Shown piece by piece: positions 6,331-28,671 of a stretch of DNA of 49,650 nt. This DNA is from Okeania sp. SIO2C9 (lineage in GTDB: Bacteria; Cyanobacteriota; Cyanobacteriia; Cyanobacteriales; Microcoleaceae). Each line of letters opens with the position of its first letter. The stretch's first letter is position 1. The position numbers and the translations under genes are program-made. The stretch lies in contig NZ_JAAHGO010000068.1 in the NCBI RefSeq assembly GCF_010672455.1, forward strand, positions 1 to 49,650. Reading direction: 5' to 3'. A model generated the notes under the pieces. It made no database searches. It saw nothing but the letters and a program-made list of their open reading frames with translations, and was not told the origin of the DNA.

Positions 6331-6586
6331 CTTGGCTCTGAATAATTATGTATGTCGATTCTAGACTCTCATAAATATTTTCTCAGGATAGTAACGTTAG
6401 GATACCAAAAGTTAAAATTTCTTTGAGAAAGTCCAGGAAAACATAATAACAGCATTACTGTTATGGTAGGGGGCTTTATTGGCTTTTACAGCTCAATTAA
6501 TTAATTATATTGGTTAGGTCAATAAACAATCCAGTTAAACAAAGTATAAATCAAATAGGTCGATACTACTAGACTCGTTGTCAATG

Positions 6587-7016
6587 ACCCAACGCTAAAC
6601 TCCGGTTATAGCGTAGGCTTGTAAGTCTAGTATTTACAAGTCTTGAGTTGACCCGGCTAAGTCTTAATTGACTACGTTAACGGTAGATGCTAAAAGACCT
6701 ACCTGCGAATACTTCAACAGTTCGCTGCTCTAGAATTCAACAGTTAAACATCTTAATTTGGGTATTGGAAGTGCTGTTGGGAATAGCTGACCGTTAACAT
6801 TGCCTAGTTGAGCTTTACCCCAGCAATGGGAGTTTTAACCTTATGCGTACAGGTCGTTCATCACAAGCTCATAATTGTCTGAGCGAAAGACGAATACAAT
6901 AGGTCACTGTCGTATCTTGGAGCCAAGGCGGTAGGGTTTTCAAAGGAGGAAAGTAATTTATTTGCTGGTTGCTTTCCTCCCAGCACTAAATCAAATTATA
7001 GTGCGGGTCTCCAGCA
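6587..7016 (+). ncRNA. Structured RNA, candidate HEARO/omega RNA without its nuclease gene
   Basis: Directly after an ATGA (6583-6586) begins a chain of hairpins: ACGCTA/TAGCGT (6590-6612), CTTGTAA/TTTACAAG (6618-6640), a long-range helix GTTAACGGT (6675-6683) with ACCGTTAAC (6789-6797), GCTCA/TGAGC (6866-6883) and GCACTA/TAGTGC (6982-7002). A strong AAAGGAGGAAAGTA sequence (6941-6954), which would suit a ribosome binding site, is followed by no open frame, but GGAGGAAAG and CTTTCCTCC can pair. HEARO RNAs are known to follow ATGA or GTGA and usually precede an IscB/HNH gene; here no such gene is present. The family assignment is from memory of the architecture, not from a covariance search. 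Confidence 0.5.
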
Positions 7017-7078: not shown

Positions 7079-8683
7079 ATGAAAAACACATATAAAACTC
7101 AGGATACCTTTGCAATTACAACTCCCCTTTACTACGTTAACGCTCTACCACATATAGGCAGTGCTTATACGACTATTGCTGCTGATACGGTAGCTCGTTT
7201 TCAAAGGCTACAAGGTAAATCAGTGCTGATGATTACTGGCACAGATGAGCATGGCCAAAAAATTCAAAGGACAGCTCAGAGCAAAGGCAGATCCCCCCAA
7301 GAACATTGTGATTTAGTGGTATCAGGATTTGAGTCTCTCTGGCAACAACTCAATATTCAATATGACCGTTTTAGTCGTACTACTGCATCTAACCATGAAT
7401 TAATTGTCAAAGAATTTTTCCAAAGAGTTTGGGATCGAGGTGATATCTATTTAAGTCAGCAACAAGGATGGTATTGCGTAGCTTGTGAAGAATTTAAAGA
7501 AGAGCGCGAACTTCTAGAAGATAAATATTGCTCTATTCATACTAACCAAAAAGTAGAATGGCGCGATGAGCAAAATTATTTCTTTCGTCTTTCTAAATAT
7601 CAGGAAAAACTACAAGCTTTTTACCAAGAACAGCCTAATTTTATTCAACCAGAAAGTCGTCGCAATGAAGTCTTAAATTTTGTTAACCAAGGATTACAAG
7701 ACTTTTCAATCTCTAGAGTTAATGTAGATTGGGGTTTTCAATTACCAGTAGATCCAAGCCATACTATTTATGTTTGGTTTGATGCTCTATTAGGTTATGT
7801 AACAGCACTCCTAGATCCTGATAGTGAACCTACCCTAGAGAATGCTTTATCAAAATGGTGGCCGATTAATCTACACCTAATTGGTAAAGATATACTGCGT
7901 TTTCATGCTGTTTATTGGCCAGCAATGCTAATGTCAGCAGATTTACCAATCTCTCATCATGTTTTTGGACATGGATTTTTGACCAAAGATGGGAAGAAAA
8001 TGGGTAAATCTCTGGGTAATACTTTAGATCCATTTGAATTAGTCAAAAAGTATGGCTCCGACGCAGTTCGTTACTATTTTCTCAAAGAAATAGAATTTGG
8101 GGTAGATGGTGATTTTAGTGAAACCCGCTTTATTAATGTCCTAAACGCTGACTTAGCTAATGACTTGGGTAATCTACTAAATCGTACTCTCAAAATGGCT
8201 CATAAATATTTCAAAGGCCAAATTCCAGATATTAATGGTGAGCAAATAGAAGTCACTCATCCACTTAAAGCAATAGGCATGAGTTTGGGCGAACAAGTTA
8301 TTCAAGCTTATACTGATTTAGCTTTTAGTCAAGTTTGTGAAGCCGTATTGGCCTTAATTAGAACTGGCAATAAATATATAGACGAAACTGCTCCTTGGAG
8401 TCTATATAAGCAGGGTCAGTTAGAGACCTTAGCAGAAGTGTTATATTCTGTGTTGGAATCTGTTAGACTCGCGTCTTATCTTTTATCGCCAATAATTCCT
8501 AATATTAGCAATGTTATCTATCAGCAACTAGGTTTCTCAAATGACTTTAACGATAAATCAGTAATTAATAGTTCAGAAATTTTTGTCAAACAAACAAACT
8601 GGGGCGCTTTACCAAAAAATCAAATTCTTGGGCAACCTCAACCGATTTTTCAAAGAATAGAGCTGGCAGAAACTGTTTCTTAA
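7079..8683 (+). CDS. metG: Methionyl-tRNA synthetase
   Basis: The 534-residue class I aminoacyl-tRNA synthetase charges tRNA-Met. It has TTPLYYVNALPHIGSAYTT with the HIGH-type signature HIGS at residues 25-28, the stem region WYCVACEEFKEEREL containing a CxxC pair, the ligand block YVWFDALLGYV, HFHAVYWPAMLM-type sequence (IGKDILRFHAVYWP) and the KMSKS-type loop KMGKSLGN. An anticodon-binding helical domain follows (about 385-520). No C-terminal tRNA-binding appendix is present, as usual for the short bacterial form. The ATG at 7079 precedes the conserved N-terminus by about ten residues. A structured RNA-like segment ends 60 bases upstream. Confidence 0.95.
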   Translation: MKNTYKTQDTFAITTPLYYVNALPHIGSAYTTIAADTVARFQRLQGKSVLMITGTDEHGQKIQRTAQSKGRSPQEHCDLVVSGFESLWQQLNIQYDRFSRTTASNHELIVKEFFQRVWDRGDIYLSQQQGWYCVACEEFKEERELLEDKYCSIHTNQKVEWRDEQNYFFRLSKYQEKLQAFYQEQPNFIQPESRRNEVLNFVNQGLQDFSISRVNVDWGFQLPVDPSHTIYVWFDALLGYVTALLDPDSEPTLENALSKWWPINLHLIGKDILRFHAVYWPAMLMSADLPISHHVFGHGFLTKDGKKMGKSLGNTLDPFELVKKYGSDAVRYYFLKEIEFGVDGDFSETRFINVLNADLANDLGNLLNRTLKMAHKYFKGQIPDINGEQIEVTHPLKAIGMSLGEQVIQAYTDLAFSQVCEAVLALIRTGNKYIDETAPWSLYKQGQLETLAEVLYSVLESVRLASYLLSPIIPNISNVIYQQLGFSNDFNDKSVINSSEIFVKQTNWGALPKNQILGQPQPIFQRIELAETVS

Positions 8684-24856: not shown

Positions 24857-27800
24857 CTAACCAGCTAAGGCCAAATTTTCAGATATAACTTTACTAACAA
24901 AATTTGACAAAATTTGTAGTCCAAGAGTAGAAGATTTTTCTGGGTGAAATTGTACTGCCATTAAATTGTTTTGACCTACTGCTGCTGTAACTGTTTGATG
25001 GCCGTGAGTGACTGTTGCTGCTGTAACTTGAGAGTCAGTGGGGTCAACATAGTAGGAATGAACAAAATATACCCAAGGTTGAGAAGTTATGTCACTCCAC
25101 AAAGGATGGTCTGGTTGAGTAAATTGTAGTTGGTTCCAACCCATTTGGGGAATTGTCAGACCAGGTTCAGATTTAAACCGACGTACTTTTCCAGCAAGTA
25201 TTCCTAAACCTGGTTCCTGACCTTCTTCGCTACTTTCAAATAATATTTGCAAACCTAAACATATACCTAAAAAAGGTTTACCTGAAGCAATGACTTGTTT
25301 TATGGGTGTTTCTAAGTGGCGTGAGCGCAAATGTTGCACTGCCGGGTCGAAAGACCCTACTCCTGGTAAAATTACTGCATCAGCTTGTTCTATTTCTATG
25401 GTCGAATCTGTAATTTTTGGGGTTGCACCAGTTTTTTCTAAACCTTTACAGACAGAATGTAAATTGTTAAACTAAGCAAGCTCATTTCCAGATTATTCTT
25501 TTATAGAACCTGCTCGTCTTCAGAACCGGACGTGAGACTTTCACCTCATCACGGCTCCTCTCTTAAACGTCCCTTTTCATGGGTACACCCCTGCCTTAAT
25601 ATCAACATATCGTCAACCCATAAATAATCTTCAGGTAAATCCTGTAACTTTGGTTTTGCGTATGTCTTTTTATCTAAGGCAGTTTTAGTATCGTGGCAAT
25701 GTCGGTGCAACAGTTGTTTATTCTCATAAGTGTTGTCACCGCCTTCAGACTTTGGTTTTATATGGTCTACTTCTAATAGGTCATTTGGTCTAAAGGTTAG
25801 TCCACAAAATGCGCATTTATTCTTTTGTCGCTTTAATAGCGTTGTGACTTCTTTCCTTACGCCTGGATGTTTTCCGATTCTGCTACTCCAATAAGTCCAG
25901 TCACCGTCATAGGGTGATTTATTACCTTTTACCTTGATGTGGCTTATAATAGGAACATCTGAGTGTTGGTTAAGTATATATTCGCCGTCATTAAGTATCC
26001 AATCTCTGGTTTCTTTGTAGCGAGGGAAATACTTATCTTTAACCCATTTGGCTGGCTTATTTGGATGCCTTCTACTTGCCCATCGCCATAGTCTTTTCCA
26101 TAGGAGAAAATCAAGTTTTTGAAATATCTCTTTACTGATCGCGGCTGAGTAGTAGTTAGCCCATCCTCTAATTACCGGGTTTAACTTGCTTATTAAAGCC
26201 TCTGTTGGAGCGGTTTTGTGTGAGTTACATATATCCGCCAGTTTTCGGTAGTGGGTTTTTATACTTTTGGAGGATGGTTTAATCAGCGTTTTGAATTCTT
26301 TTTTGGTTGTCTTAATGTTCCATTGCCTGATAGTGAAACCAAGAAAGTCAAATCCAGGTTTGTTTCCTTCATGTTCTTCCAAGGTGTGGGCAATCTTAGT
26401 TTTCTCTGGTTTTAGTTCTAATCCTACTTGGTTTAACCATTCCTGTATTACGGCTTTTGCTTTTAAAACTACTTTGATGTCTTCGTGTAGGATTACAAAG
26501 TCATCAGCATAGCGTATTAGGGAAAGACTTTTCATTTTGTCTCTCTGACCTATTTGCCTTCCTCTGTTATCTTTAATATCAAGAGTTTTGGCAAATTCCA
26601 TTAGCCTTTCTTCCATACCGTGTAGGGCGATGTTTGCTAGTAAGGGCGATATTACCCCTCCCTGTGGCGTTCCTTCCATAGTGCTTGAGAATTGATTATT
26701 GTCAAATACACCAGCTCTTAACCATTGTTTGATTAATTGCCTGTAGGGTGTCTGACCTAATTTTCTCAACAGTGCATCATGGTTAATTCGGTCAAAACAT
26801 TTTGATATATCAGCATCAAGTACATATTTTGACTTTTTGTTAATGCTGAGATAGATTGCTTCAATAGCATCATGCGTTGACCGTCCTGGTCTAAAACCAT
26901 AGCTATTAGGCTCAAAGCGTGCTTCCCACTCTGGTTCCATACCTAATTTTACCAAGGCTTGTAATGCACGGTCGTACATTGTAGGGATTCCAAGAGGTCT
27001 CTTTTCATCCCTCCCTGGTTTTGGTATATATACTCTGCGGGTCGGGCTTGCCTTGAGGTGTCGTGATGCTAGTAGGTTCACCAAGTTAAGTCTTTGTATG
27101 GGTGGCAGGTTTTTAATACCATCTATCCCCGCAGTTTTCTTCCCCTGGTTATCCTGTGTCACGCGCCTAACAGCTAGCAACCTAGCGTAATAGCTTTTTA
27201 AAAGAAGTTTTTGGTATCTGTGCATCTTGCGGAGTTCGCCACGGCTGGATGCTTTGTAAATCAATTTTTGTAATTTGAATACAGATTTCTCCACTCGTTT
27301 CCAATTTATATCCTTCCATTTAAGGACCGGATTGATTGAAATTTGTGAAGGTATATCGCCTGTATCCCTTGCTACGCTTAAAAATGGCTTAGGATTCCCT
27401 AACTTTCTTTTTAGTGTCTGAGCTTTATTCATTACTATTCGTTGCCTTACATTACGTCTAACAGTGGGTAAGTCTGCAAATAAAGCTTTTTACCCAATCC
27501 TACTCCCCCTAAGACCTACGACTAAAGTGCGTAGATTGACCTTGAATGGCTTCCTAAGTTCTCGACCTATATTCTTAGGTGTCAAAGAGAGGTTTCCTCG
27601 TTCCCTTATTCCTTTTTACGGCTGATTTAGTGGGGTAAAATCTCCCGGAGGGTTCAGTATGGTTGTTGATAATATCACGCACATAAGATTATCCAATGAC
27701 CCTCTGACTTTCGTCCTACATTCCATAGCTACCTTTGGAGTGGTTCTACGTAACGAGAGTTTAATCACCTTCCTATTCGTCCACTTGTCAGCCTTTGCTT

Positions 27801-28062
27801 GCGGTATCGTTCCTCGGTAACTGGTATTTTCCCGCTTTTAGACCAGCTTCACAGATTGATGTTCAGTCGCTACCATGTGGCCTATGCTGTCAACCCAACA
27901 ACAGGGCGGGTGGAATTTCACCACCAAGGTAATAAGAGTTATTCACAAGTCGAGGTTATCCTCATGTGTTGACTTGGAACGGCCATTTATACCTAGTTTC
28001 CTAGTTTAGTGGCCAACGAGTCGCACACCCATATCGTAGTCTATGACTGCAATAGTTGGCAT
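24857..28062 (-). CDS. hisH: Imidazole glycerol phosphate synthase subunit HisH, split by a group II intron
   Basis: HisH is the glutaminase subunit of IGP synthase in histidine synthesis. Exon 1 (28062-28027) encodes MPTIAVIDYDMG and is preceded by AAGGAG. Exon 2 (25465-24857) resumes in frame with NLHSVCKGLEKTG and continues ILPGVGSFDPAV, the nucleophile region GKPFLGICLGLQ, MGWNQL and VQFHPEKS with the catalytic His and Glu. Joining the exons gives 214 residues, a normal length with an uninterrupted core. An apparent start at 25339 (MQHLRS) would lack the first 54 residues, including part of the active site, and is not the true gene start. The gene works only if the intron is spliced. rsmD follows 7 bases downstream. 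Confidence 0.93.
25523..25557 (-). ncRNA. Group II intron domain V
   Basis: The catalytic hairpin reads GAGCCGTGATGAGG, TGAAAGTC, TCACGTCCGGTTC. The lower stem GAGCCG/CGGTTC and the upper GAG/CTC with a GTGAAAGT loop follow the invariant domain V form with the AGC triad. The stop codon of the intron-encoded protein (25549-25551) lies inside it. Confidence 0.92.
25549..27432 (-). CDS. ltrA: Group II intron-encoded reverse transcriptase/maturase with HNH endonuclease
   Basis: The 627-residue protein promotes splicing and retrohoming of its intron. Reverse transcriptase blocks run in order: RRVYIPKPGRDEKRPLGIPT, EPNSYGFRPGRSTHDAI, YVLDADISKCFDRINHD, GTPQGGVISPLLANIAL and SLIRYADDFVIL with the catalytic YADD at residues 308-311. 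FDFLGFTI opens the thumb/maturase X domain (about 362-470, with SKLNPVIRGWANYY). The C-terminus is an HNH nuclease: CAFCG (540-544), LLEVDHIKPKSEGGDNTYEN and LLHRHCH. All catalytic residues are present, so it is likely active. The start ATG at 27432 is unambiguous. The last codons (EEP, stop) overlap domain V. Confidence 0.95.
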   Translation of the reverse strand: MNKAQTLKRKLGNPKPFLSVARDTGDIPSQISINPVLKWKDINWKRVEKSVFKLQKLIYKASSRGELRKMHRYQKLLLKSYYARLLAVRRVTQDNQGKKTAGIDGIKNLPPIQRLNLVNLLASRHLKASPTRRVYIPKPGRDEKRPLGIPTMYDRALQALVKLGMEPEWEARFEPNSYGFRPGRSTHDAIEAIYLSINKKSKYVLDADISKCFDRINHDALLRKLGQTPYRQLIKQWLRAGVFDNNQFSSTMEGTPQGGVISPLLANIALHGMEERLMEFAKTLDIKDNRGRQIGQRDKMKSLSLIRYADDFVILHEDIKVVLKAKAVIQEWLNQVGLELKPEKTKIAHTLEEHEGNKPGFDFLGFTIRQWNIKTTKKEFKTLIKPSSKSIKTHYRKLADICNSHKTAPTEALISKLNPVIRGWANYYSAAISKEIFQKLDFLLWKRLWRWASRRHPNKPAKWVKDKYFPRYKETRDWILNDGEYILNQHSDVPIISHIKVKGNKSPYDGDWTYWSSRIGKHPGVRKEVTTLLKRQKNKCAFCGLTFRPNDLLEVDHIKPKSEGGDNTYENKQLLHRHCHDTKTALDKKTYAKPKLQDLPEDYLWVDDMLILRQGCTHEKGRLREEP

Positions 28063-28164: not shown

Positions 28165-28671
28165 ATGAAAATCAAAGTTTTACTGACATCATTTGATATA
28201 TGGAAACCTCACCATAAATCTAATTCTTCTGATGATTTACTTAGTTTAATATTTGTTCAAAATTTAACTAATTATTCGTTAAGTTTTTTAAGAAAGTTAC
28301 CTGTTGATACACAGATAGCTACAGAGATTGTTATTGATAAAATAGAAGAAATTAAGCCTGATGTGATTGTTTGTTGTGGTATGGCAGAAAAAAGAAAAAT
28401 TCTCACAATAGAATCTCAAGCTAGTTGTGGAGAAGTTGTGATGAAAACTTCTATTGATTTAGCAGAGTTAGTTTTAGGATTGGATGTAACTGAGATTAGT
28501 AATGATGCAGGAAAATTTGTTTGTGAATACTTGTATTATTCAGTTTTAAAATATCTCGATATGCGTTGTTATCAAAGTAAATGTATATTTGTTCATGTGC
28601 CTGTTTTAACAGAAAATAATCGGGATAAAATTGTAGGAGATTTTATGAAAATATTATTATCTATCGTTTAA
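28165..28671 (+). CDS. Pyroglutamyl-peptidase I-like protein (peptidase C15)
   Basis: The 168-residue cysteine peptidase-like protein starts VLLTSFDIWKPHHKSNSSDD, comparable to the LVTGFEPF...NPS start of the family. LRKLPVDT, CCGMAEKRKILTIESQA (putative catalytic Glu), ISNDAGKFVCEYLYYSVL (nucleophile Cys) and CIFVHVPVL (catalytic His) follow. The whole Glu-Cys-His triad is therefore present. The family removes N-terminal pyroglutamate from peptides. The protein is shorter than the usual 200-215 residues because the segment between Glu and Cys is reduced, so substrate range may differ. It is divergent from hisH, with about 100 bases between starts. Confidence 0.8.
   Translation: MKIKVLLTSFDIWKPHHKSNSSDDLLSLIFVQNLTNYSLSFLRKLPVDTQIATEIVIDKIEEIKPDVIVCCGMAEKRKILTIESQASCGEVVMKTSIDLAELVLGLDVTEISNDAGKFVCEYLYYSVLKYLDMRCYQSKCIFVHVPVLTENNRDKIVGDFMKILLSIV

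Follow-up and report, generated by a model that had tools for sequence, protein, structure and literature searches.

A group II intron encoding a maturase-type protein interrupts hisH after codon 12 in Okeania sp. SIO2C9

Described relatives of the hisH intron

Group II introns have been reported in protein-coding genes of Trichodesmium erythraeum, where 17 are said to splice in vivo, and a twintron has been described at Tery_4732 in the same organism (Pfreundt and Hess 2015; accessible text of PMC4649490). As far as that text goes, the T. erythraeum introns resemble the hisH intron described here in that they belong to a related marine cyanobacterium, lie in conserved protein-coding hosts and occur with or without open reading frames (ORFs). 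Compared with Tery_4732, the hisH intron is found in another genus and another host gene, is a single ORF-bearing intron rather than a twintron, and is known here from its sequence. Cyanobacterial introns of the chloroplast-like (CL) class, like the hisH intron, carry a reverse transcriptase (RT)/maturase protein in a IIB-type ribozyme (available portion of PMC4424553).

Bacterial group II introns are said to usually avoid housekeeping genes (accessible parts of PMC4424553 and PMC6003770), and polyploidy, with ~100 copies in T. erythraeum, has been proposed to permit group II introns in essential genes (available text of PMC8919778). Imperfect splicing in housekeeping genes would be costly, yet the present intron occupies the only hisH found in its genome, where sibling introns also sit in several further conserved genes. 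Introns in cyanobacterial protein-coding genes have already been described; hisH as a group II intron host was not met in the literature searched, a body of text with most subscription journals outside its coverage. The gene is not named as a host in the available portion of the CL review (PMC4424553), and in the accessible text of PMC7938551, which deals with group II introns, hisH figures as a transposon mutant and not as an intron host. The available sections of PMC9950141, retrieved by a literature search for Okeania and introns, do not describe the Okeania hisH intron.

Interruption of hisH and its predicted expression

The window (the whole stretch of DNA that was analysed, 49,650 nt) was originally predicted to contain a group II intron interrupting hisH after codon 12, and this was confirmed by the joined reading frame, by empty sites in congeners and by Rfam models of intron domains 5 and 6 (D5/D6). 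The intron is complete, spans 25466-28026 on the minus strand (2,561 nt), and is inserted in phase 0. Exon 1 (28027-28062, minus strand; MPTIAVIDYDMG) consists of the ATG and 11 further codons, matching the codons 1-12 that had been assigned to it, and its 36 nt are identical in the window genome and in the four other genomes of the genus used for comparison. Exon 2 (24857-25465, minus strand) provides codons 13-214 and the stop codon, and matches the HisH equivalog TIGR01855 with 203.7 bits (cut-off 105.4) from profile position 10 on. Excision of the intron brings ...GATATGGGT directly up to AATTTACAT..., and restores HisH as proposed: the joined frame is open over 214 codons, contains no internal stop, and reads DYDMGNLHSVCKG across the junction.

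The intron begins with GTGCGACTCG and ends with TTTAAC. The ends of group II introns follow the consensus 5′ GTGYG and 3′ AY, and those of the hisH intron, GTGCG at the 5′ end and AC at the 3′ end as originally read, fit this consensus. Comparison with intron-free relatives, which had been suggested as a check, showed both splice junctions to be correct to the base: three of the four other congeners (G002, G003 and G004) carry hisH in one piece, the alignment breaks at the predicted junction, and the subject bases on either side of the break are consecutive. The fourth, G001, which we take to be Okeania sp. SIO3B5, has the intron too, at the identical position. The junction is unable to slide, because exon 1 ends in T and the intron in C, and the intron starts with G and exon 2 with A.

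Translation of the unspliced sequence from the hisH ATG proceeds through six intron codons (GTG CGA CTC GTT GGC CAC) and then meets TAA. An internal GTG at 25339 opens an ORF of 160 aa from which the first 54 of the 214 residues are missing, LPGVGSF among them. In annotations, hisH and other genes of the Okeania lineage may appear truncated.

A second intact hisH, named in the original prediction as something that would speak against it, was sought with TIGR01855 in the whole window genome (10.88 Mb, 317 contigs, 99.98% complete), and none over the cut-off was found. The only other match, of 29.6 bits against the cut-off of 105.4 and located in a 562-aa frame, was rejected as a second hisH. 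HisH is the subunit that supplies HisF with ammonia; one hisF over the cut-off is present in the same genome, on another contig. With hisF present and one hisH over the cut-off, the histidine pathway is not obviously lost. Among the 59 genomes sampled, the window genome included, 58 contain hisH over the cut-off; in G023, a genome of the same family with 99% completeness, no hisH passes it. Among the matches listed, that of hisH starts at profile position 9 only in the window genome and G001, and at position 1 in the others. Next to hisH and divergent from it lies a 168-aa neighbour (28165-28671, plus strand) with a 54.2-bit match to pyroglutamyl peptidase (Peptidase_C15).

It is very likely that hisH, in the only copy found, holds a mobile, protein-coding group II intron, and that its pre-mRNA is spliced with the help of the maturase to make HisH. 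The hisH pre-mRNA would be transcribed with the intron inside, and the maturase, translated from this intron-containing RNA, would assist excision. The intron would leave as a lariat once a bulged A at 25473 had attacked the 5′ splice site, and joining of the exons would give the mRNA for full HisH. We infer that splicing occurs and is needed for histidine synthesis, since the HisH frame and the maturase frame are both intact and dN/dS between the window genome and G001 is low in both (~0.09 for hisH, 0.11 for the intron-encoded protein (IEP)).

Splicing would be non-essential if some chromosome copies held an intron-free hisH and the assembly displayed the interrupted allele, and polyploidy has indeed been proposed as a tolerance factor for introns in essential genes (available text of PMC8919778). 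However, the same insertion is present in two assemblies with one hisH over the cut-off in each, and the low dN/dS extends to both the exons and the IEP, so we regard such masking as highly improbable. Still harder to credit is that hisH is a pseudogene, or is expressed as a truncated product from the GTG at 25339, with histidine imported or made otherwise. Numerous pseudogenes have been attributed to the T. erythraeum genome (accessible text of PMC4649490), and the 160-aa ORF does exist, but it lacks the first 54 residues, LPGVGSF included, exon 1 is identical in all five compared genomes, dN/dS is low and hisF is present.

The ribozyme, its protein and exon recognition

A covariance search, also suggested at the outset, gave two Rfam group II models over their gathering scores: RF00029 (group II intron D5/D6) at 25466-25559 (47.8 bits, gathering score 40, E 2.1e-6) and RF04357 (D5) at 25519-25560 (53.8 bits, gathering score 53). 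The last 100 nt of the intron fold at -31.7 kcal/mol (z -4.07), and 7 of the 26 D5/D6 pairs show changes on both sides in a consensus fold of 18 related introns. On the basis of these models and folds, domain 5 was placed at 25523-25560 and domain 6 at 25466-25522, both on the minus strand. At 57 nt, domain 6 is among the longer forms found in related introns. The branch point of group II introns is a bulged A located 7-8 nt from the 3′ splice site; in domain 6 the bulged A at 25473 is the eighth nucleotide from the intron 3′ end.

The IEP (25549-27432, minus strand, 627 aa) is encoded by an open frame with the Pfam domains RVT_N, RVT_1, GIIM and HNH, of which RVT_1, GIIM (maturase) and HNH score over the Pfam cut-off. 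A YADD motif is found at residue 308, within RVT_1, and the match to TIGR04416 reaches 359.7 bits (cut-off 300). The closest solved relative by sequence is PDB 6me0 ('Maturase reverse transcriptase'; E 2e-114 over IEP residues 24-582), which belongs to a different intron and host, with residues 1-23 and 583-627 of the IEP lying outside the match. We take 6me0 to be the maturase of the Thermosynechococcus T.el4h intron. Judging from its intact RT, maturase and endonuclease domains, the hisH intron is a mobile element.

The EBS elements of the intron were placed by alignment of the family; a search for EBS1 by pairing within the hisH intron alone gave only G-U-rich sites outside the position later assigned, and these were rejected. 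A 5′-end motif was searched for in 98 loci, of which 20 lie in the window genome and 78 in named genomes, and gave 95 candidate intron starts. Both EBS regions could be read in 71 of these introns, 24 being dropped, and 67 remained after removal of duplicates. In this set 94% of positions pair between EBS1 and the six bases at the end of the exon (mean 44% and maximum 51% in 2,000 shuffles), and EBS2, in the best register among those tried, pairs with exon positions -13 to -9 at 93% of positions (mean 41% and maximum 49%, again in 2,000 shuffles); one of the 67 rows is out of register and was kept in the count, which lowers the observed pairing. For EBS3, the variable columns were tested in the 49 distinct introns for which both ends were available. 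One column is Watson-Crick complementary to exon 2 position +1 in 92% of these introns (shuffled mean 46%, z 8.8), and the next best column tested has a z of 2.6.

In the hisH intron, EBS2 is predicted to be CGTAG at intron positions 277-281 (27746-27750, minus strand), which pairs at five of five positions with the IBS2 CTACG at -13 to -9 of exon 1, and EBS3 to be the T at intron position 387 (27640, minus strand), which pairs with the A at +1 of exon 2 (IBS3). EBS1, GTGCGT at intron positions 345-350 (27677-27682, minus strand), pairs weakly with the IBS1 ATGGGT at -6 to -1, through two Watson-Crick and three G-U pairs with one G-G mismatch (5/6 paired). The EBS1 of the G001 hisH intron forms three Watson-Crick and two G-U pairs. 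All six EBS1 positions pair in 49 of the 67 introns, and two or fewer Watson-Crick pairs are found in only three, one of them out of register. The weak EBS1 pairing of the hisH intron could reflect less efficient splicing, or an insertion that tolerated a poor target. The predicted EBS3 element places the hisH intron in group IIB, and it is probably of the bacterial CL class, an assignment that we presume and with which the HNH domain and a cyanobacterial host agree.

Sibling introns and the history of the hisH insertion

Searching the window genome with the intron gave 44 matches, many of them partial, and 13 distinct intron starts besides that in hisH. Four starts without a clear coding frame were left out of the family search; exon pieces, searched separately (E 1e-5), matched a family for 8 of the 13. 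The hosts are rpiA (recognised on both sides), moaC, a HIT-type phosphoramidase gene, yqeK, a peroxiredoxin gene, an amino-acid transporter gene, a kinase-like gene and a cytosine methylase gene. Several of the pieces score below the full-length cut-off, as expected of pieces, and the downstream frame of the HIT gene did not fit. The peroxiredoxin-like gene (contig C57 of the window genome, 42462-50552) apparently contains two tandem related introns separated by a middle exon of ~24 codons; the 50-aa piece downstream of the second site gave no family match, and this second site is also occupied in Okeania hirsuta.

Named genomes were scanned with the IEP, and the best 80 of 106 matching stretches, which may exclude the window genome, gave 78 loci; within these, the hisH-site locus recognised by its exon end was that of SIO3B5. 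An rpiA intron is found at the same site in the window genome, SIO3B5, SIO3I5 and Trichodesmium MAG_R03. Ten recognisable exon pieces were chosen, rather than sampled at random, from other genomes of the clade, and all ten matched a family, over the cut-off for dnaG, rpsB, recF, dnaN, thyX, maf and ndhJ and below it for ndk, ROK glucokinase and cruF. The ndhJ intron sits at the very end of its gene.

The insertion phase was counted at those distinct sites, 45 in all, where the upstream reading frame is clear; hisH is left out because its exon 1 is too short. Phase 0 accounts for 36 of these sites, and the other phases for 5 and 4 (chi-square p 3e-10). Where both ends were available, the longest frames on the two sides are compatible at 25 of 33 sites and incompatible at 8. 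Since A at positions +1 and +2 of exon 2 and a purine at -15 are preferred in the phase-0 sites and in the rest alike, target-site preference, acting via codon structure, could explain part of the phase-0 excess. The bias towards codon boundaries perhaps also reflects an advantage of translation stopping just inside the intron, which would favour folding and splicing.

The hisH intron of G001 has 2,560 nt, is 97.4% identical to that of the window and encodes an open 627-aa protein. A tree was built from 59 introns; in it, the eight sites occupied in at least two genomes (hisH, rpiA, cruF, recF, thyX, ROK, permease and peroxiredoxin) each form a cluster of their own copies with support of 1.0, and the rpiA site is represented by four genomes, one of them Trichodesmium. 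Between the window genome and G001, the dS of the hisH IEP is 0.086, compared to 0.182 for hisH (Fisher p 0.010), 0.188 for rsmD (p 0.008) and 0.122 for a cytochrome-like neighbour (p 0.38, not significant); the pooled comparison gives p 0.003, and that for pooled fourfold sites 0.019. The rpiA intron protein, in contrast, has a dS of 0.227 against 0.208 for rpiA (p 0.73), and the permease intron protein 0.239 against 0.223 for the permease (p 0.86; partial protein, exon 1 only), both between the window genome and SIO3B5. In synonymous divergence the hisH IEP differs from the rpiA intron protein with p 3e-6.

The two hisH introns show 67 differences from each other, which are clustered: one stretch of 941 nt has none, against a largest gap of 488 nt in 5,000 random placements. 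This tract includes ~195 synonymous sites with zero changes, and it is not simply constrained, because the nearest other fetched intron is only 86.6% identical over it. Counted from the junction, exon 2 shows one difference in the first 60 nt, then 5/60 (60-120) and 7/60 (120-180). When donors of the conversion patches were sought among the fetched siblings, the best matches lay between 91% and 100%, with 100% only for a 26-nt piece, and no clear single donor emerged.

The halving of synonymous divergence relative to hisH and the 941-nt identical tract, set against rpiA introns that diverge at the rate of rpiA, suggest that the intron moved laterally in recent times and underwent gene conversion. 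We think it probable that the intron entered hisH after the lineages split, in at least one of them, by homing or recombination, and that parts of it were later overwritten from siblings. By hisH-rsmD distance the two hosts are not nearest kin (0.053, third largest among ten pairs); the tree of the five hosts has low support (0.55, 0.75). The window genome assembly, in 317 contigs, is a caveat for the lateral reading, and SIO3B5 is a metagenome assembly, so the patches in its intron may have arisen through chimeric assembly of repeated introns. Alternatively, both carriers could have inherited the intron from their common ancestor; the other three lineages would then have lost it precisely, and subsequent interspecies recombination would account for its low divergence. 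The rpiA and permease introns, which look vertical at shared sites in the same genomes, would be in keeping with such descent, and the clustered differences suggest that recombination does occur. However, exact losses would be required in three sampled genomes (on a weak host tree), and the ~195 unchanged synonymous sites would have to be explained next to an exon 2 that differs at 5/60 and 7/60 positions, and we consider vertical descent unlikely.

With an apparently interspecies-moved intron in hisH and gene-following introns in rpiA and the permease gene, the two congeneric genomes form a natural contrast, through which the settling of selfish introns in essential bacterial genes becomes testable in living relatives. 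We tentatively suggest a wider picture, in which a selfish intron might circulate between Okeania species by homing to a fixed hisH site, leaving the histidine synthesis of its recipients newly dependent on the maturase, and in which the rpiA and permease introns would be domesticated and inherited with their hosts, within a family biased to codon boundaries.

Elsewhere in the window, a HEARO RNA (RF02033, 114.4 bits) is found at 6580-6818 on the plus strand. This copy seems to lack a protein gene of its own, as no ORF of ≥120 aa lies between it and the ORF at 7079. In Trichodesmium sp. MAG_R04, thyX carries a related intron near the gene start, and a like site is found in MAG_R03. The same MAG_R04 exon also matches, less strongly, models for helicase and RtcB in which inteins are included, and this thyX may possibly hold an intron plus an intein in one gene.
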